Assembly: GCF_030380815.1 (NCBI RefSeq)
Contig: NZ_JAUDUY010000003.1
Coordinates: forward strand, 372,001 to 436,000
Length of the DNA stretch: 64,000 nucleotides
Direction of reading: 5' to 3'
From: Robiginitalea aurantiaca
Lineage (GTDB): Bacteria; Bacteroidota; Bacteroidia; Flavobacteriales; Flavobacteriaceae
Below the pieces are notes generated by a model. That model had not been told where the DNA came from. It worked only from the letters and a program-made list of their open reading frames with translations, and did no database searches. A program made the translations under genes and the position numbers. Positions 17,628 through 28,239 of the stretch are shown piece after piece (within the stretch, counting starts at the first letter, position 1; every line of letters begins with the position of its first letter).

Positions 17628-18914
17628 TTACCCATTCCAGGCCGATTCCATTTTGGATCGGATTTCATCCAGGCATAGATTCCCCAGACTCCCCTGATGA
17701 CTGTGATTTAGGCTTTTATCGGGCTCATAAGTGCCCTCTTCAATCTGCGCTGCCATTTTGCGATAGGCCTCCCTGAAGGAAATGCCCTGTTGAACCATCG
17801 CATCCATGGTATCTACGCTGAACAAATAATCGTATTTGGGGTCAGAAAGAATATTTGAATTCACCTGGATTCTCCCCAAACTGCTTATAGTGATTTCAAG
17901 ACAGGATTTTAAATCTTCAACAGCGGGAAGGATCAGGGGTTTGGTCATTTGGAGGTCCCTATGATATCCACTGGGAAGATTAGTCGTCAGCAAACTCAAT
18001 TGATTTGGCAGGCCCTGAATGATATTGCATTTTGCCCTTACGAGTTCAAAGAGGTCCGGGTTCTTTTTATGCGGCATAATACTACTTCCGGTAGTGAGCT
18101 CCTGCGGAAAGGAAACAAACCCGAAATTCTGATTCATGTACAGGCAAATGTCCATAGCTAGTTTCCCTAGAGTACCCGCTATGGAAGCCATAGCCATGGC
18201 TGAAAGCCTTTCTACTTTCCCCCGGCCCATCTGGGCGGCTACCACGTTATACTTCTGAGTTGCGAACCCCATTTGCGCAGTTGTAAAATCCCGATCGATG
18301 GGAAAAGAGCTTCCGTATCCGGCAGCGCTTCCCAGGGGATTCTGATCTGCGACCCTGTAGGCTGCCCGGAGCATGTAGACATCGTCGATAAGGCTTTCGG
18401 CATAGGCGGAGAACCAAAGGCCAAAAGAGGAAGGCATGGCGACCTGCAGATGGGTATATCCGGGAAGCAGGACGTCTTTATGTTGGTCAGCAAGTCGCAG
18501 GAGCAGGTCGAAAAGCGCCTTTACTTGCCCGTGAAAACCCGAAAGAGCATCTTTGAGGTATAGCTGAAGCGCCACGAGGACCTGATCGTTTCTGGAGCGT
18601 GCGGTATGTATTTTCTTTCCCGCTTCTCCCAGGCGCTCCGTGAGTTCGAATTCTATTTTGGAGTGCATGTCCTCAAAGGGTGGATCAATGGAAAACTCCC
18701 CGTTCCGCACTTCCTCCAGCATAAGGTCCAGAGCTGAGGTTAGGGATTCGGTTTCTGCCTTAGAAAGGATTCCGATCCGGCCCAGCATATTGGCATGGGC
18801 TCTTGAAGCCTTCAAGTCATAAGTTACAAGCACCTGATCGAGTTCCCTGTCGTTACCGACCGTGAAGTGATCCATTTGCTCGTCCGGAGTACCGCCTTTA
18901 TCCCAAAGTTTCAT
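17628..18914 (-). CDS. argH: Argininosuccinate lyase
   Basis: 428 residues of the fumarase/aspartase superfamily; last step to arginine, releasing fumarate. The signature GSSIMPHKKNPD carries the catalytic Ser loop, and HTARSRNDQV and TGYTHLQ-like GYTHLQVAMP complete the active site. It has the arginine operon direction but is separated from argE by 226 bases that hold a hairpin, so it may have its own promoter or be attenuated. Slightly shorter than the E. coli enzyme (457), as usual in Bacteroidota. Confidence 0.94.
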   Translation of the reverse strand: MKLWDKGGTPDEQMDHFTVGNDRELDQVLVTYDLKASRAHANMLGRIGILSKAETESLTSALDLMLEEVRNGEFSIDPPFEDMHSKIEFELTERLGEAGKKIHTARSRNDQVLVALQLYLKDALSGFHGQVKALFDLLLRLADQHKDVLLPGYTHLQVAMPSSFGLWFSAYAESLIDDVYMLRAAYRVADQNPLGSAAGYGSSFPIDRDFTTAQMGFATQKYNVVAAQMGRGKVERLSAMAMASIAGTLGKLAMDICLYMNQNFGFVSFPQELTTGSSIMPHKKNPDLFELVRAKCNIIQGLPNQLSLLTTNLPSGYHRDLQMTKPLILPAVEDLKSCLEITISSLGRIQVNSNILSDPKYDYLFSVDTMDAMVQQGISFREAYRKMAAQIEEGTYEPDKSLNHSHQGSLGNLCLDEIRSKMESAWNG

Positions 18915-19140: not shown

Positions 19141-20223
19141 TTACCCAAATCTTTCAGGTTGCAGGAATCCCTTTAGCATTGCGACGTATATGGCAATGCC
19201 TTCCTCAACCTCTTGAACCATGATGAACTCATCCGCTGAATGGGAACGCTGGCTCTTCCCAGGCCCCATTTTCAGGGAAGGACAACTGAGCGCAGCCTGG
19301 TCCGAAAGCGTAGGGGACCCATAGGTTTTTCGGCCCAAACCAATCCCGCTGATCACCAGGGGATGTTCCGGATCTATGGAAGAGGAATTCAGGCGCAGCG
19401 ACCGCGCACGGAGCTTACAAGGAGCCTCCTTTTCCAGGATTTCGGCAATTTCACCATTGCTGTAGCGATCATTTACGCGTACATCCAATACGATTTCCAC
19501 CTGTGCGGGAACCGCATTGTGCTGTTTTCCTCCTTTAATTTGGGTGACGGTCAATTTGACTTCTCCAAGTGTTTCTGAGACCCTTGGGAACCGGTAATTT
19601 CGGAACCAATCGAGTACGGGAATGGCATTGTAAATGGCATTATCTGGATTGGGATGGGCGGCATGAGAAGGTGTACCTGTGATTGTGCCGTCAAATACGA
19701 CAAGCCCTTTTTCGGCAATTGCCAGATTCATTTCTGTGGGCTCCCCAACGATCGCCACATCGATCGCAGGCAACGAATCCAGGATTCCCCTTAAGCTGTT
19801 TGGTCCTGAATTTTCTTCTTCCGCCGAGGCAACCATGAGAAGATTATGGGATAGGTCCTTTGCCTGATGCCAATAGACAAAAGAGGCCAGAAGGGATACC
19901 AGACACCCACCGGCATCATTGCTGCCCAGGCCGTAAAGTTTTCCATCCTCGAGGGTGGCCTTAAACGGATCGCGGGTGTATCCCTTGTTTGGACGCACCG
20001 TATCGTGGTGGGAGTTCAGCAGTAGTGTGGGTTTATCTTCTGAAAACCAGGCATTCCTCGCAATGATGTTATTTCCAATTTGTTCACACCCAATATCATG
20101 GGATTCCAGCCATTGGCGTATTAAATTGGCCGTTGCAGATTCCTCACCGGAAAAGGAGGGGGTTTCTATCAATTGCTGCAGAAGCGCAAGCGCCTCACGG
20201 GTAAGCTTTTCGAGAGAATTCAT
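19141..20223 (-). CDS. argE: Acylornithine/acylcitrulline deacylase, M20 family
   Basis: 360-residue M20 metallopeptidase that removes the N-acyl group in the arginine pathway. Metal ligands are visible at NSHHDTV (residues about 71-77), GSNDAGG and the catalytic Glu pair SAEEEN; a dimerisation insert follows and the final His is in KMGPGKSQRSHSADEF. In Bacteroidota the substrate is N-acylcitrulline because the transcarbamylase acts on acylornithine; this is known for the pathway and inferred here. Its ATG overlaps the argB stop as ATGA. Confidence 0.9.
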   Translation of the reverse strand: MNSLEKLTREALALLQQLIETPSFSGEESATANLIRQWLESHDIGCEQIGNNIIARNAWFSEDKPTLLLNSHHDTVRPNKGYTRDPFKATLEDGKLYGLGSNDAGGCLVSLLASFVYWHQAKDLSHNLLMVASAEEENSGPNSLRGILDSLPAIDVAIVGEPTEMNLAIAEKGLVVFDGTITGTPSHAAHPNPDNAIYNAIPVLDWFRNYRFPRVSETLGEVKLTVTQIKGGKQHNAVPAQVEIVLDVRVNDRYSNGEIAEILEKEAPCKLRARSLRLNSSSIDPEHPLVISGIGLGRKTYGSPTLSDQAALSCPSLKMGPGKSQRSHSADEFIMVQEVEEGIAIYVAMLKGFLQPERFG

Positions 20224-20999
20224 AATATGATTTGAGTGAATTTAGGGGCATTTCCGCTCAGAAGACCCACCGAACCGATACATACCTGGCCGACCCCTTC
20301 CTCCAAAGCTTTAAAGCTATTAAACAATTTAGGAATCATTCCTGTGGCAATATCCCCGGATTTCCGCAGGGCTTCGAAAGCATACCTGTCGATTTCAGAA
20401 ATCACACTTTCGGGGTCATTTACGTCTCGTAAAACACCTTCCTTCTCAAAACAGTAAATCAATTTTGTGCTGTAGGATGCACTCAGTGCAATGGCGAGTG
20501 AAGCGGCAATGGAGTCCGCATTCGTATTGAGCAGTTGCCCGTTCCCATCATGCGTCAGGGCGCAAAAAACAGGAGTGAATCCGGCATCCAATAATCGGAT
20601 TAACGCCGTTGTCTGAACGCGCTCCACATCCCCTACAAACCCAAAATCGATCTCAGATACCGGTCTTTTCCGGGCCCGTATCAGATCGGCATCCGCGCCG
20701 CTTAGGCCGAGGGCGTTGCAGCCCTGACCCTGCAGCCCGGATACCAACTTTTTGTTCGCCCAACCGGCATACACCATGGTGACCACTTCGAGACTCCGGA
20801 CATCTGTTATTCTTCGCCCATCCACCATTTTGGGGGTTATGCCCAATTCCCTGCTGAGTTTACTTGCGCGTTGTCCCCCGCCGTGAATCAGGATCTTACG
20901 CCCTTTCAATTCAGAAAAAGAGGTATAAAACGATTCCAGAAGAATTTGATCCTCCAGAAAGGCTCCTCCGATTTTTACAATAGTTATTTCCTGATTCAC
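20220..20999 (-). CDS. argB: Acylglutamate kinase
   Basis: 259-residue amino-acid kinase phosphorylating N-acylglutamate. The phosphate loop KIGGAFLED (about 9-17), LIHGGGQRASKL (37-48), the Asn/Asp substrate region NTNADSIAASLA and GMIPKLFNS near the C-terminus are all present. In Bacteroidota the acyl group may be succinyl rather than acetyl. It lies 13 bases after argF' and overlaps argE. Confidence 0.93.
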   Translation of the reverse strand: MNQEITIVKIGGAFLEDQILLESFYTSFSELKGRKILIHGGGQRASKLSRELGITPKMVDGRRITDVRSLEVVTMVYAGWANKKLVSGLQGQGCNALGLSGADADLIRARKRPVSEIDFGFVGDVERVQTTALIRLLDAGFTPVFCALTHDGNGQLLNTNADSIAASLAIALSASYSTKLIYCFEKEGVLRDVNDPESVISEIDRYAFEALRKSGDIATGMIPKLFNSFKALEEGVGQVCIGSVGLLSGNAPKFTQIIL

Positions 21000-21012: not shown

Positions 21013-21951
21013 TTATGATTTTCCCAATACGTGCATCATCGCAAGCTGGGCAGCGACCGTACGGTTAGCTGCCTGTCTGAGAACAAGGGACTGATGTCCG
21101 TCCAGAACCTCATCGGCCACGACGACATTCCGCCTGACCGGCAGGCAATGCATGAATTGCGCTTTACCGAGTTTTTCGGATGTCATCATCCAGGTGGAAT
21201 CCCGGAGAAGTACTTCGCCGTAGCGGGTGACACTGCTCCAGTTTTTTACATAGACAAAGTCAGCCTCTTCGAGTGCCTGGCGCTGGTCGTAGACAGGAGT
21301 GTAGGCTCCTGTAATATCGACATCGAGTTCATATCCGGGCGGGTGCGTGACTACCAAATCCACGGGCATTCGCCTCATTATCTTAACAAAGGAATTCGGT
21401 ACCGCCTGGGGTAGTGCTTTTGGATGTGGAGCCCAGGACAAGACTACTTTTGGTCTGTTCTTTTTTGTCGCGCCGGAGATTGTCAGGGCGTCGGCCAACG
21501 CCTGTAATGGATGCCCCGTAGCACTCTCCATATTGATTACCGGAATCCCTGAATGGGCGGCAAATCCGTTTAGAATACCTTCTGCCTTATCAGTTTCCCG
21601 ATCCTTGAGACCGGCAAAAGCCCGTACTCCTATCAGGTCTGCATACACGCCCACAACGGCGGCAGCCTCCCTGATGTGCTCTGCAGCCCCATGCTCCATT
21701 ACCGTTCCATCTGTCAATTCCAGATTCCAGCCTTCTGAACCAAAATTCATCACAATAACCTCGAGCCCCAGAAGATGGGCAGCTTTTTGTGTGCTGAGCC
21801 TGGTCCGCAGACTGTTGTTAAAAAAAAGCAGACAGAGGGTTTTGCCATTCCCGAGGGATCTGAGGTCTTTGGGGTTTTCTGTGAGTTCCTTCCCTTTTGC
21901 AATCCATTCCGGGAGGGACCCGATGTCCTCGGTGCTTAAGAAATGCTTCAT
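21013..21951 (-). CDS. argF': N-acylornithine carbamoyltransferase (ArgF' type, probably N-succinylornithine)
   Basis: 312 residues of the transcarbamylase superfamily; carbamoyl phosphate plus N-acylornithine gives N-acylcitrulline. The carbamoyl-phosphate motif reads FFNNSLRTRLS (about 47-57) instead of the STRTR of ordinary OTCases, and the C-terminal HCLPVRRNVVVADEV is the form of AOTCase/SOTCase. At GTVMEHGAAEHI the residue that is Glu92 in Xanthomonas AOTCase appears to be Ala; from memory, Pro or Ala there favours succinylornithine. Co-translated with argD (4-base overlap). Confidence 0.88.
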   Translation of the reverse strand: MKHFLSTEDIGSLPEWIAKGKELTENPKDLRSLGNGKTLCLLFFNNSLRTRLSTQKAAHLLGLEVIVMNFGSEGWNLELTDGTVMEHGAAEHIREAAAVVGVYADLIGVRAFAGLKDRETDKAEGILNGFAAHSGIPVINMESATGHPLQALADALTISGATKKNRPKVVLSWAPHPKALPQAVPNSFVKIMRRMPVDLVVTHPPGYELDVDITGAYTPVYDQRQALEEADFVYVKNWSSVTRYGEVLLRDSTWMMTSEKLGKAQFMHCLPVRRNVVVADEVLDGHQSLVLRQAANRTVAAQLAMMHVLGKS

Positions 21952-23075
21952 TGGAGTTCAGTTTTGAGGGCTTTGAAAAACAGGTCTAATTCATCGGCGC
22001 CAATATTGAGGGCCGGAAGGATGCGAAGCAAATTCTTGTTTTTAGAACTGCCGGTTAAAATGCGATGTTCGTACAGCAACTTTTTTCGAAGGTCAGCGAC
22101 CTCGAATTCCATTTCAAAACCAAGCATCAGCCCTTTACCCTTAATTTGGCGTATGTATGGAACGGCTGAAAGTTCCATGCGGAAGTATCGTTCCAGTTCC
22201 GGTATTTTGGAGATGAGTTTCTCATTTTCCAAAACGTCCAGAACCGTTAGCGCGGCGACACATGCCAGGTGGTTGCCTCCAAAAGTAGTCCCCAACATAC
22301 CGCTCTGGGCTGAGATATCAGGGTGAATGAGGATACCTCCAACCGGAAATCCGTTCCCCATCCCTTTTGCCATACTGATGATACCAGGGGTAGCTGTACT
22401 GTGCTGAAAAGCAAAGAATTTCCCTGTCCTTCCGAATCCGCTCTGTACTTCATCTGCAATGAACACGGCCCCATAACGCTTGCAGAGCATCGCCACGGAC
22501 TCCATAAAGGCATTATCAGCCATCCCGAGACCACCCACGCCCTGAATGGGCTCCAGGATGACTGCGCAAACGTCTTCTTCGGACAATGCATTTTCAAGGG
22601 CTGTAAGGTCATTCAGCGGGACAAACGCAACCTCGTGACCCGCATTGAGTTTTGAAATAATCGATGGGTTATCCGTAGCGGCTACGGCAGCTGAAGTACG
22701 ACCGTGAAAACTATTCTTAAAGGCTATAACCTTTGATTTCCCCGTGTGAAAGGATGCTAATTTTAAGGCGTTTTCATTTGCTTCAGCGCCTGAATTACAT
22801 AGAAACAACTGGTAGGTGTCCAATCCGGAGGCCGCTCCTAGGGCAGCGCATAGCTTCTCCTGCAGGGGGATTTGGACGGAATTGCTGTAATAGGCAATCC
22901 GATGGAGCTGTTCGGAAAGGTTTTTTACAAATTCAGGGTGAGAATGGCCAATGGAAATGACCGCGTGGCCGCCATATAAATCCAGGAATCGCTCTCCGTT
23001 CTGGTCCGTAATCCAGCAACCCCGGGCAGAGACCGGCGTGATATCAAATCTGGGATATACGTCAAAGAGTTCCAT
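21948..23075 (-). CDS. argD: Acylornithine aminotransferase
   Basis: 375-residue class III PLP-dependent aminotransferase. CNSGAEANENALKLA (about 96-110), FKNSFHGRTSAAVAAT, the FIADEVQSGFGRTGKFFAF block with the PLP Asp, and the Schiff-base Lys in ISMAKGMGNGFPVG are plain. It makes N-acylornithine from the semialdehyde and glutamate. It starts 3 bases after proC and overlaps argF' by 4. Confidence 0.93.
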   Translation of the reverse strand: MELFDVYPRFDITPVSARGCWITDQNGERFLDLYGGHAVISIGHSHPEFVKNLSEQLHRIAYYSNSVQIPLQEKLCAALGAASGLDTYQLFLCNSGAEANENALKLASFHTGKSKVIAFKNSFHGRTSAAVAATDNPSIISKLNAGHEVAFVPLNDLTALENALSEEDVCAVILEPIQGVGGLGMADNAFMESVAMLCKRYGAVFIADEVQSGFGRTGKFFAFQHSTATPGIISMAKGMGNGFPVGGILIHPDISAQSGMLGTTFGGNHLACVAALTVLDVLENEKLISKIPELERYFRMELSAVPYIRQIKGKGLMLGFEMEFEVADLRKKLLYEHRILTGSSKNKNLLRILPALNIGADELDLFFKALKTELQ

Positions 23076-23078
23076 GCG

Positions 23079-23873
23079 CTATCCTTTTCGGATTTCTGAA
23101 ATTTTTTCAAAAGAGGTTATGATCCCCCGAATCAGGGAAGCACTCAAGCCCTGATGCTCCATTTCATTCAGCCCTTCAATAGTGCAGCCCATGGGCGTAG
23201 TCACCCGGTCGATTTCGGCTTCCGGGTGCCTGCCGGATTGTATCAGGAGTTCGGCCGCACCCCTGGAAGTATGCATGGCCAGCTCCTGAGCCTCTTCCGC
23301 ATCGAATCCCAGCTGAATAGCCCCTTGGGTGGTTGCCCGGATCAGGCGCATCCAAAAGGCAATTCCACTGGCACATATTACGGTGGCGGCCTGCATTCTG
23401 TCCTCTGGGATAATCATGGAATGCCCCATGCGGTTAAAAATCGCCTCGGCGAGTTCCAAACGCGTTTTACCGTGTTCGTTGCTGCACAAACAGGTCATGG
23501 AATGTGCTACCGAGATAGCTGTATTGGGCATCGCCCGAATAATGAACCGCTCCGGACCCGTAATGGCTTCAATTTCGCCGATTGAAAAGCCGGTAATTGT
23601 CGAGATAATGACGTGATTATCGCTGAAAAGATCTGCGACAGACTGAAGTACATCCGGGAAATCCCCGGGTTGTACCGCAAAGATGATAATGTCTGATTTG
23701 CTCACGGCCATGCGGTTGTCCGAACTGGTCACCACATTGCCATATGCCTCAAATTCCCGAAGGGCTTCCGGGTATCGCCGGGTCAGATACATTGTCGTAG
23801 CCGCCCCGCTGTTGAGAATGCCGGTTGCAATGGAGAGGCCAAGATTGCCGGCACCGATAATTGCTATTTTCAT
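23079..23873 (-). CDS. proC: Pyrroline-5-carboxylate reductase
   Basis: 264 residues. Rossmann motif IGAGNLGLSIATG at the start and the P5CR signature in the C-terminal half (AATVICASGIAFWMRLI and VTTPMGCTIEGLNEME). It makes proline from P5C. It lies inside the arginine operon (3 bases before argD, 18 after argC), an arrangement common in Flavobacteriia, where proline and arginine share glutamate; proA and proB are not in the window. Confidence 0.93.
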   Translation of the reverse strand: MKIAIIGAGNLGLSIATGILNSGAATTMYLTRRYPEALREFEAYGNVVTSSDNRMAVSKSDIIIFAVQPGDFPDVLQSVADLFSDNHVIISTITGFSIGEIEAITGPERFIIRAMPNTAISVAHSMTCLCSNEHGKTRLELAEAIFNRMGHSMIIPEDRMQAATVICASGIAFWMRLIRATTQGAIQLGFDAEEAQELAMHTSRGAAELLIQSGRHPEAEIDRVTTPMGCTIEGLNEMEHQGLSASLIRGIITSFEKISEIRKG

Positions 23874-23891: not shown

Positions 23892-24866
23892 TTAGAAGCC
23901 TATAGCTTTTAGTTTTAGTCCGGTATCCCTGGGAATACCAAACATCAGATTCATGTTTTCAACTGCCTGTCCCGAAGCCCCTTTCAGGAGGTTATCCAGG
24001 ATTGAAGTGATCAGCAGCACCCCATTGTGTTTATGAAGGTGCAGGTGTGCTGAATTTGTATTGACCACCTGTTTGAGGTTTGGGACGGCCTCAGTGAGAA
24101 GGGTAAAGGGAGCTTCCCTGTAATAGGAGGCATACAGATCCCGGGCCTCTTGAATTGTGCCTTCATAGGCCACGTATGCCGTAGCAAAAATACCCCTGGG
24201 GAAATCGCCCCTGTGCGGAAGAAAGAAGAGCTCGGGAACGGGGGGTCCAAAACCATCCAGAGTTTCGCGGATTTCCGCAAGGTGTTGATGGATAAAGGGT
24301 TTATAGAGGGAAAAATTGTTATTCCGCCAGCTAAAATGGGAGGTCTCCGAAAGCCCGGCTCCGGCCCCGGTACTGCCCGTTACGGCGTTTATATGTACTG
24401 CCTGCGTAAGAAGTTGTTCCTGCGCCAGCGGAAGCAGCGCCAACTCAATGGCTGTTGCAAAACAACCCGGATTAGCAATATTCCGAGCCCTGGAGATGCG
24501 ATCTGCATTGCGTTCCGGAAGACCGTACACAAAAGCCTTTCCTTTAAAATCAGAAGTTTCAGACAACCGGAATTCATTGCTCAAATCAATGATCCGGGTT
24601 TCCGGATTAAATGACCATTCTTCCATGAATCGCCCTGAATTTCCATGTCCAAGGCAGAGGAATACGACATCCACATCGGGTTCAGGCCGATTGGTGTAGA
24701 CCAGTGTGGTCTGTCCGGTGAGATCCGGGAAGGTGGTGTGCAGGGATTCCCCGTTGCGGGTTCTGCTGAACACAAAATCCAGACGGACCTCCGTGTGGTT
24801 GAGCAACAGGCGAATGAGTTCACCTCCTGTATATCCTGAACCACCTATAATTCCAGCCCGTATCAT
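23892..24866 (-). CDS. argC: N-acyl-gamma-glutamyl-phosphate reductase
   Basis: 324 residues from the ATG at 24866, chosen because it overlaps the argG stop as ATGA and begins directly with the Rossmann motif GIIGGSGYTGGELIRLLL; an upstream in-frame codon would add 27 unlikely residues. The active-site Cys lies in ANPGCFATAIELALLP and the catalytic His region in LFFLPHRGDFPRGIFAT. It reduces the acylglutamyl phosphate made by ArgB to the semialdehyde. Confidence 0.93.
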   Translation of the reverse strand: MIRAGIIGGSGYTGGELIRLLLNHTEVRLDFVFSRTRNGESLHTTFPDLTGQTTLVYTNRPEPDVDVVFLCLGHGNSGRFMEEWSFNPETRIIDLSNEFRLSETSDFKGKAFVYGLPERNADRISRARNIANPGCFATAIELALLPLAQEQLLTQAVHINAVTGSTGAGAGLSETSHFSWRNNNFSLYKPFIHQHLAEIRETLDGFGPPVPELFFLPHRGDFPRGIFATAYVAYEGTIQEARDLYASYYREAPFTLLTEAVPNLKQVVNTNSAHLHLHKHNGVLLITSILDNLLKGASGQAVENMNLMFGIPRDTGLKLKAIGF

Positions 24867-26050
24867 TCCCCTGATTTTATTTGTGAAGCAATTTTCCCGG
24901 GGTTTGAAAGGATTTTGATAAATCCTTTGGCATCCCTGGCGGACCACCCCAGATTGAGCTCGCCGTAACTCCCGAAGGAAGCGTCCATCAGATCGTATTC
25001 AGATTCGATTCCTTCGAGTTCGAACCGATAGGGATGCAGTTTGACAAATACACGTCCGCTGACGTGTCTCTGGGCATCCTCGAGGAAGCACTCAATATTG
25101 CGCATGACTTCGTCCAGATACTGCCCTTCGTGAAGGAGCATCCCGTAAAAACTGCCCAGCTGTTCTTTCTGAAATTGCTGCCATTTGCTTAGGGTATGTT
25201 TTTCAAGCAAATGGTGAGATTTCAGGATAATTAAAGGGGCCGCAGCCTCAAAGCCGACGCGTCCCTTGATACCTATAATCGTATCCCCCACGTGGATGTC
25301 CCTTCCAATGGCAAAGGCTGAAGCCAGTTTATCCAGTTTCAGGATGTTGTTTACCGGAGTGTCTTTTTCTCCGTTAAGGGCAGTTAATTCTCCTTTGGTA
25401 AATTCCAGGGCCACGGATTCTGATTCGCGTTGTTCCAGGGGACTCGGATACGCCTGATCCGGCAGGGGTTTGCGGGATCCCAGGGTTTCCTCCCCTCCCA
25501 CAGAAGTCCCCCACAAACCTTTGTTGACGCTGTATTTGGCTTTTTCCCAGCTGTACGCGATACCTGCCTCCTGGAGGTATGCGATTTCCGCCTCCCGGGA
25601 GAGTTTGTTATCCCGGATGGGTGTAATGATTTCAACCTCCGGGGCCATTATCTGGAAAATGAGGTCGAAGCGGACCTGGTCATTCCCTGCACCTGTGCTT
25701 CCATGCGCGATATGGGTTGCACCAATAGTCCTTGCGTATTGGGCAATTTCCATGGCCTGCACAATCCGTTCGGCGCTAACGGATAGGGGGTAGGTATTGT
25801 TTCTCAGGACATTTCCGTAGATCAGGTATTTCACCACCCGATCGTAAAAGGATTGGACTGCATTTCTGGCGAGATAGGAGTGAGCGCCCAGTTCCAGGGC
25901 CTTTGCTTCGATATCTTCCAGTTCTTTTTTGTCAAAACCGCCTGTATTTACAGTTACGGCATGGACTTCATATCCTTCTTTGTGGGTGAGGTAATGCGCA
26001 CAGTAGGAAGTGTCGAGGCCCCCGCTGTAGGCCAGTACGAGTTTTTTCAT
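24863..26050 (-). CDS. argG: Argininosuccinate synthase
   Basis: 395 residues. The ATP PP-loop is AYSGGLDTSYC (residues 7-17), GSTGAGNDQVRFD contacts aspartate and citrulline, and YSVNKGLWGTSVGGE follows. It joins citrulline and aspartate. Second gene of the operon, overlapping the GNAT gene by 4 bases and argC by 4. The order GNAT-argG-argC-proC-argD-argF'-argB-argE-argH is recognisable across Bacteroidota. Confidence 0.95.
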   Translation of the reverse strand: MKKLVLAYSGGLDTSYCAHYLTHKEGYEVHAVTVNTGGFDKKELEDIEAKALELGAHSYLARNAVQSFYDRVVKYLIYGNVLRNNTYPLSVSAERIVQAMEIAQYARTIGATHIAHGSTGAGNDQVRFDLIFQIMAPEVEIITPIRDNKLSREAEIAYLQEAGIAYSWEKAKYSVNKGLWGTSVGGEETLGSRKPLPDQAYPSPLEQRESESVALEFTKGELTALNGEKDTPVNNILKLDKLASAFAIGRDIHVGDTIIGIKGRVGFEAAAPLIILKSHHLLEKHTLSKWQQFQKEQLGSFYGMLLHEGQYLDEVMRNIECFLEDAQRHVSGRVFVKLHPYRFELEGIESEYDLMDASFGSYGELNLGWSARDAKGFIKILSNPGKIASQIKSGE

Positions 26051-26664
26051 GGATTTTTCTTTTTTGAAAGGAGGCTCCGCCTGATCTGCTTCAGGCGTTC
26101 CATGGATTTTTTATCAAATCTCGATGGCGCTTCCTCCGGCGTTTGTTTTGGGTCGTATAACATCCCCGTGCAAAGGCACATATTGCGATTGGTTCGGGTT
26201 AGGATATCAAAATTTTTACACGTTTGGCATCCTTTCCAGAACTGGGGATCATCGGTGAGTTCGGAATAGGTAACCGGGCGATACCCGAGGTCCGAATTGA
26301 TTTTCATCACCGCCAGACCTGTGGTAATACCGAAAAGCTTGGCCTCAGGGAATTTCCTGCGGGAAAGCTCAAAAACGGCTTTTTTGATTTTCTTGGCCAG
26401 CCCCTGTTTCCGGTAATCGGGATGTACGATAAGTCCTGAATTCGCAACGTATTTCTGGTGACTCCAGACCTCTATATAACAGAAGCCTGCAAACCGGTCC
26501 CCGTCGATGGCGATTACAGCATTTCCATTTTTAAGGCGTTGGATGATATACTCTGGCGTCCGTTTTGCGATACCGGTTCCGCGAACCTTAGCCGATTCAG
26601 TGATGGTTTCTGAAATGACCGTTGCAAATTTTATATGTGATGCATCAGCAACTACGATTTTCAT
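26047..26664 (-). CDS. GNAT acyltransferase with C-terminal Cys cluster, candidate acylglutamate synthase
   Basis: 205 residues from the ATG at 26664 (a TTG two codons earlier is possible). A GNAT fold spans residues 1-150, with the acyl-CoA loop LIVHPDYRKQGLAKKI. The C-terminal part has CQTC followed by CLC, a likely zinc-binding set unusual for GNATs, then a basic tail. It is the first gene of the arginine operon and overlaps argG by 4 bases, and no argA or argJ is present, so it is the natural candidate for N-acetyl- or N-succinylglutamate synthase. This role is inferred from context. Confidence 0.8.
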   Translation of the reverse strand: MKIVVADASHIKFATVISETITESAKVRGTGIAKRTPEYIIQRLKNGNAVIAIDGDRFAGFCYIEVWSHQKYVANSGLIVHPDYRKQGLAKKIKKAVFELSRRKFPEAKLFGITTGLAVMKINSDLGYRPVTYSELTDDPQFWKGCQTCKNFDILTRTNRNMCLCTGMLYDPKQTPEEAPSRFDKKSMERLKQIRRSLLSKKKNP

Positions 26665-26728
26665 TGCCAATAAATTGATAAAAAGTGGGAAAAGAATTTA
26701 AAATACGATGCGGAACTGGACTCACCTA

Positions 26729-26803
26729 ATTCCAAGGAAGAAGTGCACCCTTACGGGCGGAGGCGGAAACGCCTGAGCGATGCCGGATAACCTGGCATGG
26801 AAT
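26729..26803 (-). ncRNA. Candidate structured leader RNA of the arginine operon
   Basis: A compact 75-base element. ATTCC (26729-26733) pairs with GGAAT (26799-26803) and encloses three hairpins: CCC-TTAC-GGG (26748-26757), AGGCG-GAAA-CGCCT (26761-26774) and ATGCCGG-ATAA-CC-bulge-GGCAT (26780-26798). On the minus strand it would sit in the leader of the GNAT-arg operon, 65 bases before the start codon and after a -7 box at 26846-26839. On the plus strand the second loop is a GNRA tetraloop, so orientation is uncertain. It has no T-loop or anticodon loop, so it is not a tRNA. A cis-regulator for arginine genes is inference. Confidence 0.45.
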
Positions 26804-26838
26804 AGAAGGAAAGAAGTTGTTCTGTCTTCATCGTATTC

Positions 26839-26846
26839 CAAATGTA
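26839..26846 (-). promoter_or_regulatory. -7 box for the arginine operon
   Basis: On the minus strand the site reads TACATTTG, matching TAnnTTTG; no good TTTG at -33. Initiation here would give a leader of about 170 bases that contains the hairpin element. Confidence 0.4.
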
Positions 26847-26856
26847 CAAATATTAT

Positions 26857-28239
26857 TTAATCAGTCGGGATTCTCACCTGGTTTTTGACAATCACGGACA
26901 GATTTCTTTTATTTCTGATGATCTCATAAATGAGAAAACCATAGACGGTGGCGTATTCAATAAACAGAATCCACGGCCTTTCCTGCACTTCGGACCCGGC
27001 GTAGGCCACATAACTAAGGATCACGGTGGCAGACCACAGGTACACAAATCTGAAGTTGGTAAAAGTGCTTAACAGCAGAGGAAAAATAACGTACCATGGA
27101 TGCACGGTGGTCGATAGAAAGTAATATGAACAGAGTGCCAGCAAAGCCCCGCCAAACCAGTATTTAGGCAGCTTGATTATGGGGTGTGCGCAGACCCCAA
27201 GTGTGATCAGTGCAGTTAGACCCGGTACAATGGCCCCGTACTGCTTGATGAATTCCCAGGGTTTTGCGCCCTGATTAACAGCAATCCATTCCGCCAGATT
27301 ATAAAGACTGGCATTAAATTCAAAGTTTGAAAACCACAGGCGCAGGGTTTGGCCGTAATGGGATCCGAATTCAGGAAAATAGAGTGGATACAGAAGGGTT
27401 GCGATTAATAGGCCAATACCCAGATAAAAACCTGTCGCTTTTTTCCAACCGAGGAGGGGAAGTAAAAGGGGAAGGAAAAGCAGGGGTATGAGTTTAATGC
27501 CAATTGAAAAAGCATACGGGAAAAGGGCCAGATACCATTTGTTGGTAATAACCAGGAACATGGCCAGAACAAAGAAAAACAACATGACACCTTCAGAATG
27601 AAGGTTCCCTGTGAGTTCTATAATGACCAGCGGATTGAGGAAATACCAGAAAATCAGGTTGGGGGCCCGGTTGATTTTTTTCAGGATCCGCCTTCCAAAA
27701 TACAGAATGCCGAGATCTGCCAGAATGATCATGACGCGCATACTGATAATGGTACCCATGATGGTTTTGCCACCCAGATAGGCTGAGAGCGCAAAGAAAT
27801 ACTGGTTAGCAGGTGGATAGTTACTGTAATTTTCCCTGCTCAGACTTCCCATCCCTTTATGGAGTTCTGCCGCCGTATCAAAGGATAATCCCCCCTGTGC
27901 CATCCATTGGTCCGGCGTGAGCAAATATGGGTTAAGGCCCTCCAGGATGAGGTTTCCATCCCATATAAACCGATAAAAATCCTGGGACAGGTTGGGCAGG
28001 GCAAACAATAAAACAGCTCGGAAAAGCAGACCGCTTGTCACCATAAACCTCAGATTCCATTTCTCAAACTGTATCAATTTGAAAGAAAAAAAGAAGAGGG
28101 CAGCAAAGAGTGTGATCAGTTTTACAGAATCTTCACGCCCGAGGTCGTACCCGAACACCCAGTAGAAAACAAGACTCAGCCCTACCAGTAAAATGGAAAT
28201 ACGGTGCAGATTCCAGAAGGTTTGCAGGGCGCGGATCAT
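26857..28239 (-). CDS. Polytopic membrane glycosyltransferase (GT87/MptB-like mannosyltransferase)
   Basis: 460 residues, about 11-12 membrane helices. The loop NLSQDFYRFIWDGNLILEGLNPY after the second or third helix has the Asp-Arg/Trp-Asp pattern of GT-C polyprenyl-phosphate-sugar transferases, and NYPPANQYFFA resembles the PPAxxY motif of mannosyltransferases in archaea and Bacteroidota. It would add a sugar, probably mannose, from a lipid-linked donor on the outer face of the inner membrane. The GT2 at 29957 could make that donor. It follows 229 bases after the upstream GT2, possibly in the same transcript. Confidence 0.75.
   Translation of the reverse strand: MIRALQTFWNLHRISILLVGLSLVFYWVFGYDLGREDSVKLITLFAALFFFSFKLIQFEKWNLRFMVTSGLLFRAVLLFALPNLSQDFYRFIWDGNLILEGLNPYLLTPDQWMAQGGLSFDTAAELHKGMGSLSRENYSNYPPANQYFFALSAYLGGKTIMGTIISMRVMIILADLGILYFGRRILKKINRAPNLIFWYFLNPLVIIELTGNLHSEGVMLFFFVLAMFLVITNKWYLALFPYAFSIGIKLIPLLFLPLLLPLLGWKKATGFYLGIGLLIATLLYPLYFPEFGSHYGQTLRLWFSNFEFNASLYNLAEWIAVNQGAKPWEFIKQYGAIVPGLTALITLGVCAHPIIKLPKYWFGGALLALCSYYFLSTTVHPWYVIFPLLLSTFTNFRFVYLWSATVILSYVAYAGSEVQERPWILFIEYATVYGFLIYEIIRNKRNLSVIVKNQVRIPTD

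Follow-up and report, generated by a model that had tools for sequence, protein, structure and literature searches.

A putative arginine leader peptide and conserved hairpins ahead of the arginine gene cluster of Flavobacteriaceae

The nine-gene arginine cluster of Robiginitalea aurantiaca is preceded by an intergenic gap, which raises the question of how this gap might contribute to the control of arginine synthesis. In the window, i.e. the whole stretch of 64,000 nucleotides analysed, the gap is bounded by the end of a GT87-like gene at 26857 and the ATG of a GNAT-family N-acetyltransferase gene at 26664, both on the minus strand (Table 1). The sequence-only reading of this DNA had placed an element in this gap, ahead of the nine arginine-pathway genes; sequence and homology agree with this and put it on the minus strand. 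We propose that the element is probably a leader-peptide (uORF) device that controls the arginine operon through ribosome stalling at Arg codons. Within the cluster, argC, proC, argB and argH pass the NCBIfam cut-off, whereas the other five genes fall below it and carry family-level names. In the GNAT protein, a putative N-acetyltransferase of the arginine pathway, CxxC and CxC cysteines are invariant across nine aligned sequences and resemble a metal site. For the GT87-like gene, a Pfam search at E 0.001 gave no match.

Table 1. Features of the leader region and the arginine gene cluster (positions in the window)
Feature	Position	Strand	Description and basis
-7 promoter box TACATTTG	26839..26846	minus	Exact TAnnTTTG match; 7 nt before leader ATG
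Leader ORF MKTEQLLSFYSMPGYPASLRRFRLRP	26751..26831	minus	26 codons, then TAA (26753-26751); translation and family-wide frame statistics
Arg-rich codons R-R-F-R-L-R	26757..26774	minus	Presumed sensing codons; Arg conservation in 151 leaders
HP0 (AUGCC / GGCAU)	26780..26798	minus	Hairpin within the ORF; register scan and codon shuffling
HP1 (CGCCC-GUAA-GGGUG)	26746..26759	minus	Last Arg codon in 5' arm, stop codon in loop
HP2 (GGAAUU-A-GG-UGAGU-CC-AGUUCC)	26712..26733	minus	Clearest covariation among HP1 and HP2
G-poor gap	26665..26711	minus	HP2 to GNAT start codon, 47 nt; sequence and family-wide spacing
GNAT-family N-acetyltransferase	26047..26664	minus	Cluster gene 1; homology, family-level name
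argG	24863..26050	minus	Homology, family-level name
argC	23892..24866	minus	Passes NCBIfam cut-off; start from homology, open frame to 24947
proC	23079..23873	minus	Passes NCBIfam cut-off
argD-like transaminase	21948..23075	minus	Family-level name
N-acetylornithine carbamoyltransferase-like	21013..21951	minus	Family-level name
argB	20220..20999	minus	Passes NCBIfam cut-off
ArgE/DapE-family deacylase-like	19141..20223	minus	Family-level name
argH	17628..18914	minus	Passes NCBIfam cut-off
GT87-like gene	26857..28239	minus	Upstream of leader; ends 10 bp before -7 box

The element is widespread in the family and is found together with the arginine genes. BLAST with the leader (176 nt) gave matches in 70 of 199 family genomes (E <= 0.001), and homologues of GNAT and argG adjoin the match in all 29 relatives taken from this search (L003-L031). 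A covariance model (R1), built from 30 leaders including that of the window, matched 180 of 299 sampled Flavobacteriaceae genomes (E <= 0.1), and the GNAT gene was present in 196 of the same genomes (E <= 1e-30); both occurred in 178, GNAT only in 18, the model match only in two, each with argG downstream of the element, and neither in 101. In a sample of the phylum, 17 of 296 genomes matched, 13 of them in Flavobacteriaceae; the four marginal matches outside the family (L072-L075, E 0.07-0.1) were dropped because GNAT and argG were both absent from their loci. Among named genomes, the element was present at 77 of the best 80 of at least 581 GNAT loci, mostly about 100 nt before GNAT and in genera that include Zobellia, Maribacter, Arenibacter, Winogradskyella, Polaribacter and Leeuwenhoekiella; the other three of these 80 loci (L255, L313 and L314) gave no model match. 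A search of 12 genomes at E <= 10 gave a single strong match in each of nine, located at the arg leader. Eight of 23 weaker matches were inspected as possible further copies and look like chance, all lying within open frames of 192 to 1010 codons.

The family-wide statistics given below refer to 151 genomes, namely the 155 model-matching loci analysed less the four outside the family, with 149 coming from the 180 family matches and two from the phylum sample. This set leans towards stronger matches, as the remaining 31 of the 180, mostly the weakest, were left out; 30 of the 151 leaders trained the model, and 149 cores are distinct. Two more hits (L078 on the minus strand, E 0.84, and L156 on the plus strand, E 0.2) had been dropped before the count of 155. 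GNAT lies downstream of the leader in 149 of the 151 loci. A genus-level group, g128, seems to be without the element, which was absent by eye in L175 (G127), one of the 18 GNAT genomes lacking a model match, and in five more leaders of the group taken from the phylum sample (L174, L176, L177, L181 and L182). Loci L174-L177 of this group share a recurring cttctcccgaagtacgga stretch about 230-330 nt upstream of GNAT, flanked in some loci by inverted arms (atgaataaaa ... tttttattcat) and without an Rfam match, which may be an opposite-strand gene end or another RNA.

The -7 box noted earlier upstream of the element, in the right orientation, is an exact match (26846-26839) to the consensus TAnnTTTG (PMC9723704). 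From its position, the 5' end of the leader mRNA is predicted to lie almost at the leader ATG, which would be unusual, because leaderless mRNAs are reported to make up only 5.5% in F. psychrophilum (PMC9723704). The sequence-only reading saw no coding signal here; contrary to this, the minus strand carries an Arg-rich ORF with coding statistics that extend through the family. The codon register was anchored on a fixed CGC, so that Arg at this position in 151 of 151 leaders is demanded by the anchor. The preceding codon is Arg in 141 leaders (CGT 104, CGC 34, CGA 3), and the following one is Pro in 149 and Thr in two. A stop codon comes immediately after this Pro or Thr in 143 of the 151 (TAA 124, TAG 18, TGA 1); the other eight leaders, one of which (L172) also belongs to the Thr set, run on and end 3 to 10 codons further, either ahead of the HP2 loop or at it. 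Over the 12 codons upstream, Arg codons account for 476 of 1812 in frame versus 88 and 52 in the other two frames, and a stop codon within 25 codons was met in frame in only six leaders, against 135 and 108 in the other frames.

A -7-like box (at most one mismatch) with an ATG or GTG within 14 nt was found in 109 of the 151 leaders, most commonly at a spacing of 7 nt, and was absent in 42. The start codon is in frame and open in 92 of these 109, in frame but closed in two and out of frame in 15. Outside its ending the leader peptide is variable in sequence, and some leaders have just two Arg codons near the end of the ORF. Across the 151 genomes, the leader is thus a short ORF rich in codons for arginine, the end product of the operon, and it is placed between the promoter, recognised solely from box matches and in 109 of the 151 leaders, and the arg operon. 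In five leaders (L015, L051, L093, L097 and L099), an ATG lies 9 codons from the stop (MRRNFPRRP type) and an in-frame GTG lies 29-30 codons upstream, after a TAATTTTA box; the longer, GTG-started ORF seems more likely in these, because HP0 precedes the internal ATG.

Comparison of relatives also supports three hairpins, which we call HP0, HP1 and HP2. Of the three short hairpins proposed from the single sequence, two correspond to HP0 and HP1, whereas the one at 26761-26774, between them, is not among the 25 best registers in the family; a neighbouring register shows a mild excess (z 6.7), and further registers in the ORF reach z values of up to 7.5. The register scan peaks 34-37 nt before the CGC, at HP0, with z up to 20.9. 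In the HP0 stretch, whose limits for the shuffling test were chosen after the scan had been seen, 118 of 151 leaders have a hairpin score of at least 11, compared with a mean of 35.4 after shuffling of the codon order, and a control stretch further upstream has a strong hairpin in 53 of 151. HP0 is formed by 93 distinct arm pairs among 128. HP1 is paired in 714 of 755 cells, in a register chosen to fit, and is mostly invariant, with CGCCC/GGGUG replaced by CGCAC/GUGCG in L160 and L172; its loop varies while the stem mostly holds. Conserved RNA structure therefore lies over the sensing codons, HP1 covering the last Arg codon and HP0 lying elsewhere in the ORF.

HP2 follows the ORF stop by about 17 nt and lies mostly beyond the interval 26729..26846, within which the element had been taken to be closed; the interval in fact cuts HP2, which runs to 26712. 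The 5-bp stem thought to close the element joins the ORF to the 5' arm of HP2, a matching 5-mer occurs in only 17 of 151 leaders (60 nt of ORF), and ORF and arm do not co-evolve when partners are swapped between leaders. HP2 itself is paired in 1187 of 1208 cells, in a register again chosen to fit and thus leaning towards pairing. Its pair 5 is C-G in 78, A-U in 46, U-A in 12 and U-G in 11 of the 151 leaders, and unpaired in four; pair 4 is A-U in 128, G-C in 16 and G-U in seven; the inner pair 8 is G-C in 147 and A-U in four. The bulge usually ends in A, and the loop follows UGNGU (UGAGU 113, UGUGU 28, UGCGU 9), with UGUGG in one leader. In a MAFFT alignment of 30 leaders, 96.3% of the HP2 cells are paired with a covariation score of 0.265, neither value being reached in any of 500 shuffles, and slid versions of HP2 pair in 20 to 74% of cells. 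Two further measures were unexceptional, namely pairs with changes on both sides (3, reached by 100 of 500 shuffles) and further pair types (8, reached by 72 of 500). In a structure-free alignment of all 151 leaders, the top covarying column pair falls within HP2; high ranks are also taken by some column pairs that do not base-pair, as is to be expected among related sequences. The covariation in relatives by which the element was to stand or fall is therefore present. Wobble pairs (G-U at HP1 pair 2 in 142 of 151 leaders, U-G at HP2 pair 6 in 38) place the element on the minus strand.

Folding of the interval as a whole is mildly unusual (z -2.03 on the minus strand and -2.12 on the plus strand), and in free RNA the predicted formation of HP1 is 0.84 and that of HP2 on average 0.59 (72 leaders). 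AGGUGA in the HP2 loop region, which we took to be a candidate partner of the 16S anti-SD, was rejected in this role: four leaders swap the inner G-C for A-U with pairing kept, and the third base of the loop varies, so that structure explains the loop better. One GNAT genome without a model match (L179, G033) has the leader CGACGTCGCCTTTTGGCGTAA, in which RRRLLA-stop is accompanied by CGCC-UUUU-GGCG and the second hairpin (GUGAUGU/ACAUCAC) is quite different from HP2. It looks like a degenerate leader and suggests that another hairpin can take the place of HP2 without loss of HP1 or the Arg codons.

The near-constant R-P-stop ending is likewise compatible with arrest by the nascent peptide, as in TnaC and the ornithine-sensing SpeFL, which are stop-codon arrest peptides. 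Under such a scheme, the nascent ...RRP-stop peptide would sense arginine or a precursor and halt the ribosome at the stop codon, consistent with the prevalence of Pro after the last Arg (149/151) and of an immediate stop (143/151), for which all three stop codons are used. We consider this unlikely. The rest of the peptide is variable, and in the eight run-on leaders and the two with Thr, the HP1 pairing is kept or re-made, so that HP1 can account, at least in part, for the Pro-stop ending. The absence of an immediate stop in 8 of 151 leaders and the re-paired HP1 of the two Thr leaders favour codon sensing over peptide sensing.

A second alternative, which we judge to be quite improbable, is translational control, in which the leader ribosome or HP1/HP2 would set the access of ribosomes to the GNAT start. 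It would agree with the tight distance between HP2 and this start, which has a median of 48 nt and quartiles of 45 and 52 nt among the 138 leaders (of 151) in which the start was placed by pattern. However, for 72 leaders parsed out of 80 drawn at random, the GNAT start has a predicted accessibility of 0.49 in free RNA, 0.49 with the ribosome stalled at Arg and 0.50 with the ribosome at the stop codon. Since ribosome placement leaves it unchanged, sequestration of the RBS or start codon was rejected. The sequence between HP2 and GNAT is poor in G (42% A, 16% C, 7% G and 35% T). As a loose control limited to a single genome, the sequences upstream of 25 other genes in the window contain 16.5% G.

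A cognate-codon leader peptide with three hairpins also recalls the classical trp/his-type attenuator with its mutually exclusive terminator and anti-terminator, a mechanism that appears very unlikely here. No terminator-like site was found in 26640-26900 and no U-tract after HP2, where T averages 2.75 in 9 nt (138 leaders). Co-evolution was assessed by swapping partner segments between leaders, with the HP2 arms as positive control (11.21 vs 9.03), in a procedure insensitive to invariant bases. As a mutually exclusive anti-terminator pairing, none of five alternatives did better than shuffled partners: the pairings of the spacer with the 5' side and with the 3' side of HP2, of the ORF with HP2 and with the gap, and of HP2 with the gap all stay within or below the shuffled range. 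A complement of the HP1 3' arm occurs in the ORF in 30 leaders versus 30.4 for shuffled ones.

The sequence-only reading had instead suggested a ligand- or protein-binding leader RNA that controls arginine synthesis. The position of the element, its covariation and its link to the arg cluster support a leader RNA with such a function, whereas direct binding by a non-coding RNA, in which translation plays no role, is not the best reading and seems hardly probable. The conserved loop and bulge of HP2 do resemble a recognition site, but the in-frame starts, stop synonymy and Arg-codon synonymy of the leader ORF speak for coding. As had been claimed, no tRNA was found in the interval, and a search of the window against Rfam, including Flavo-1 (RF01705), gave no match at gathering score; nor did a search of ten loci, of which four carry the complete element. 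A permissive Rfam scan of 26600-26920 returned three weak matches to eukaryotic families, at chance level. Finally, the possibility that the element is the terminator of the GT87-like gene, whose end lies 10 bp upstream of the -7 box, likewise on the minus strand, can be set aside almost with certainty, since a U-tract is lacking and 13 of the 30 loci with 1.5 kb of upstream sequence keep the element without a GT87 homologue. A homologue is present in the other 17 of these 30 and was seen in 52 of the 155 loci, of which many had an upstream flank of just 0.7 kb.

Returning to the proposed stalling at Arg codons, we envisage the following hypothetical sequence of events, in which (i) ribosomes would start at the AUG close to the 5' end of the mRNA; (ii) with plentiful charged Arg-tRNA, the ribosome would reach the stop codon and leave, allowing HP1 to fold; (iii) the naked leader would reduce expression of the operon, with Rho-dependent termination or decay of the RNA as the most likely routes, since the uncovered, G-poor RNA would be accessible to Rho or RNases in arginine-replete cells; (iv) when arginine is short, the ribosome would stall on the Arg codons, between HP0 and HP2, cover HP1 and keep it open and shield the RNA, so that the operon is expressed. 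Rho or RNA decay is proposed because neither an intrinsic terminator nor start-codon sequestration was seen. How HP1 would alter expression is a guess, as no switch between exclusive structures was found.

The distribution of ArgR adds a further aspect. The ArgR family (PF01316) was found in none of 149 sampled Flavobacteriaceae genomes, in a search whose positive controls matched in 9 of 14 cases, and in 55 of 148 genomes of the phylum sample, one of these being a marginal hit in the same family (G174, E 1.1e-5). Elsewhere in the phylum, argG lies within the same locus in all of the 30 best ArgR loci fetched, so that ArgR stands beside argG in other families and the leader element does so in Flavobacteriaceae. 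The element would do the work of ArgR seen elsewhere in the phylum. More tentatively, we regard it as conceivable that a near-leaderless, terminator-less device stands in for ArgR across the family, in which the Arg-stalled ribosome has HP0 behind it and HP2 ahead of it, with HP2 as the recognition site of a factor (a protein, Rho or the ribosome) that would execute the regulatory decision. HP2 may bind a protein, and its candidate recognition features are the conserved bulge and the UGNGU loop, which lie about 48 nt upstream of the first gene. If true, the proposed stalling would offer a testable explanation of how arginine synthesis may be controlled in Flavobacteriaceae in the absence of ArgR and add an arginine leader peptide in Bacteroidota. 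Its output step may be unlike that of textbook attenuators, because the mRNAs are predicted to start near the leader AUG and no terminator is visible. An alignment and a covariance model of the leader are now available.

We found no report of this arg leader element in open-access full text. Known systems resemble it in part. The fungal arginine attenuator peptide is encoded by a uORF of similar length and serves arginine synthesis, but it is eukaryotic and acts by nascent-peptide arrest in response to free arginine. Among RNA motifs listed for Bacteroidetes, neither Flavo-1 nor Bacteroid-trp (RF01692) matches the window at gathering score, and the GUCCY-hairpin motif is tabulated without an Rfam number (PMC2864571); in HP2, the base after GUCC is mostly A or G. 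The map of B. thetaiotaomicron mentions leader-like sORFs in general (PMC7366714). The ilvB-II leader, a trp/his/ilv-type attenuator, likewise has a cognate-codon ORF over covarying hairpins before a biosynthetic operon, once per genome; in contrast to the arg leader, in which none was found, it ends in an intrinsic terminator stem (PMC10272879). In S. aureus rbfL, Arg codons of a leader peptide also sense arginine limitation, but rbfL overlaps the RBS of a biofilm regulator, which it represses at low arginine, and its description, in the sections concerned, includes no hairpin element (PMC13009471). A partial precedent is the Salmonella speF leader, where orf34, a short ORF with consecutive Arg codons, shows arginine-dependent ribosome pausing and Rho and RNase G are involved; high arginine lowers expression, and Rho acts when orf34 is untranslated, a step that differs from the one proposed here (PMC6386406). 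The two share the short leader ORF with consecutive Arg codons and a hairpin 'downstream of stop', and the speF authors, in the relevant part of their report, likewise saw no Rho-independent terminator; however, speF controls ornithine decarboxylase, encodes a conserved DUF2618 peptide and has both alternative structures and a sequestered start site (PMC6386406), of which the arg leader showed no sign.
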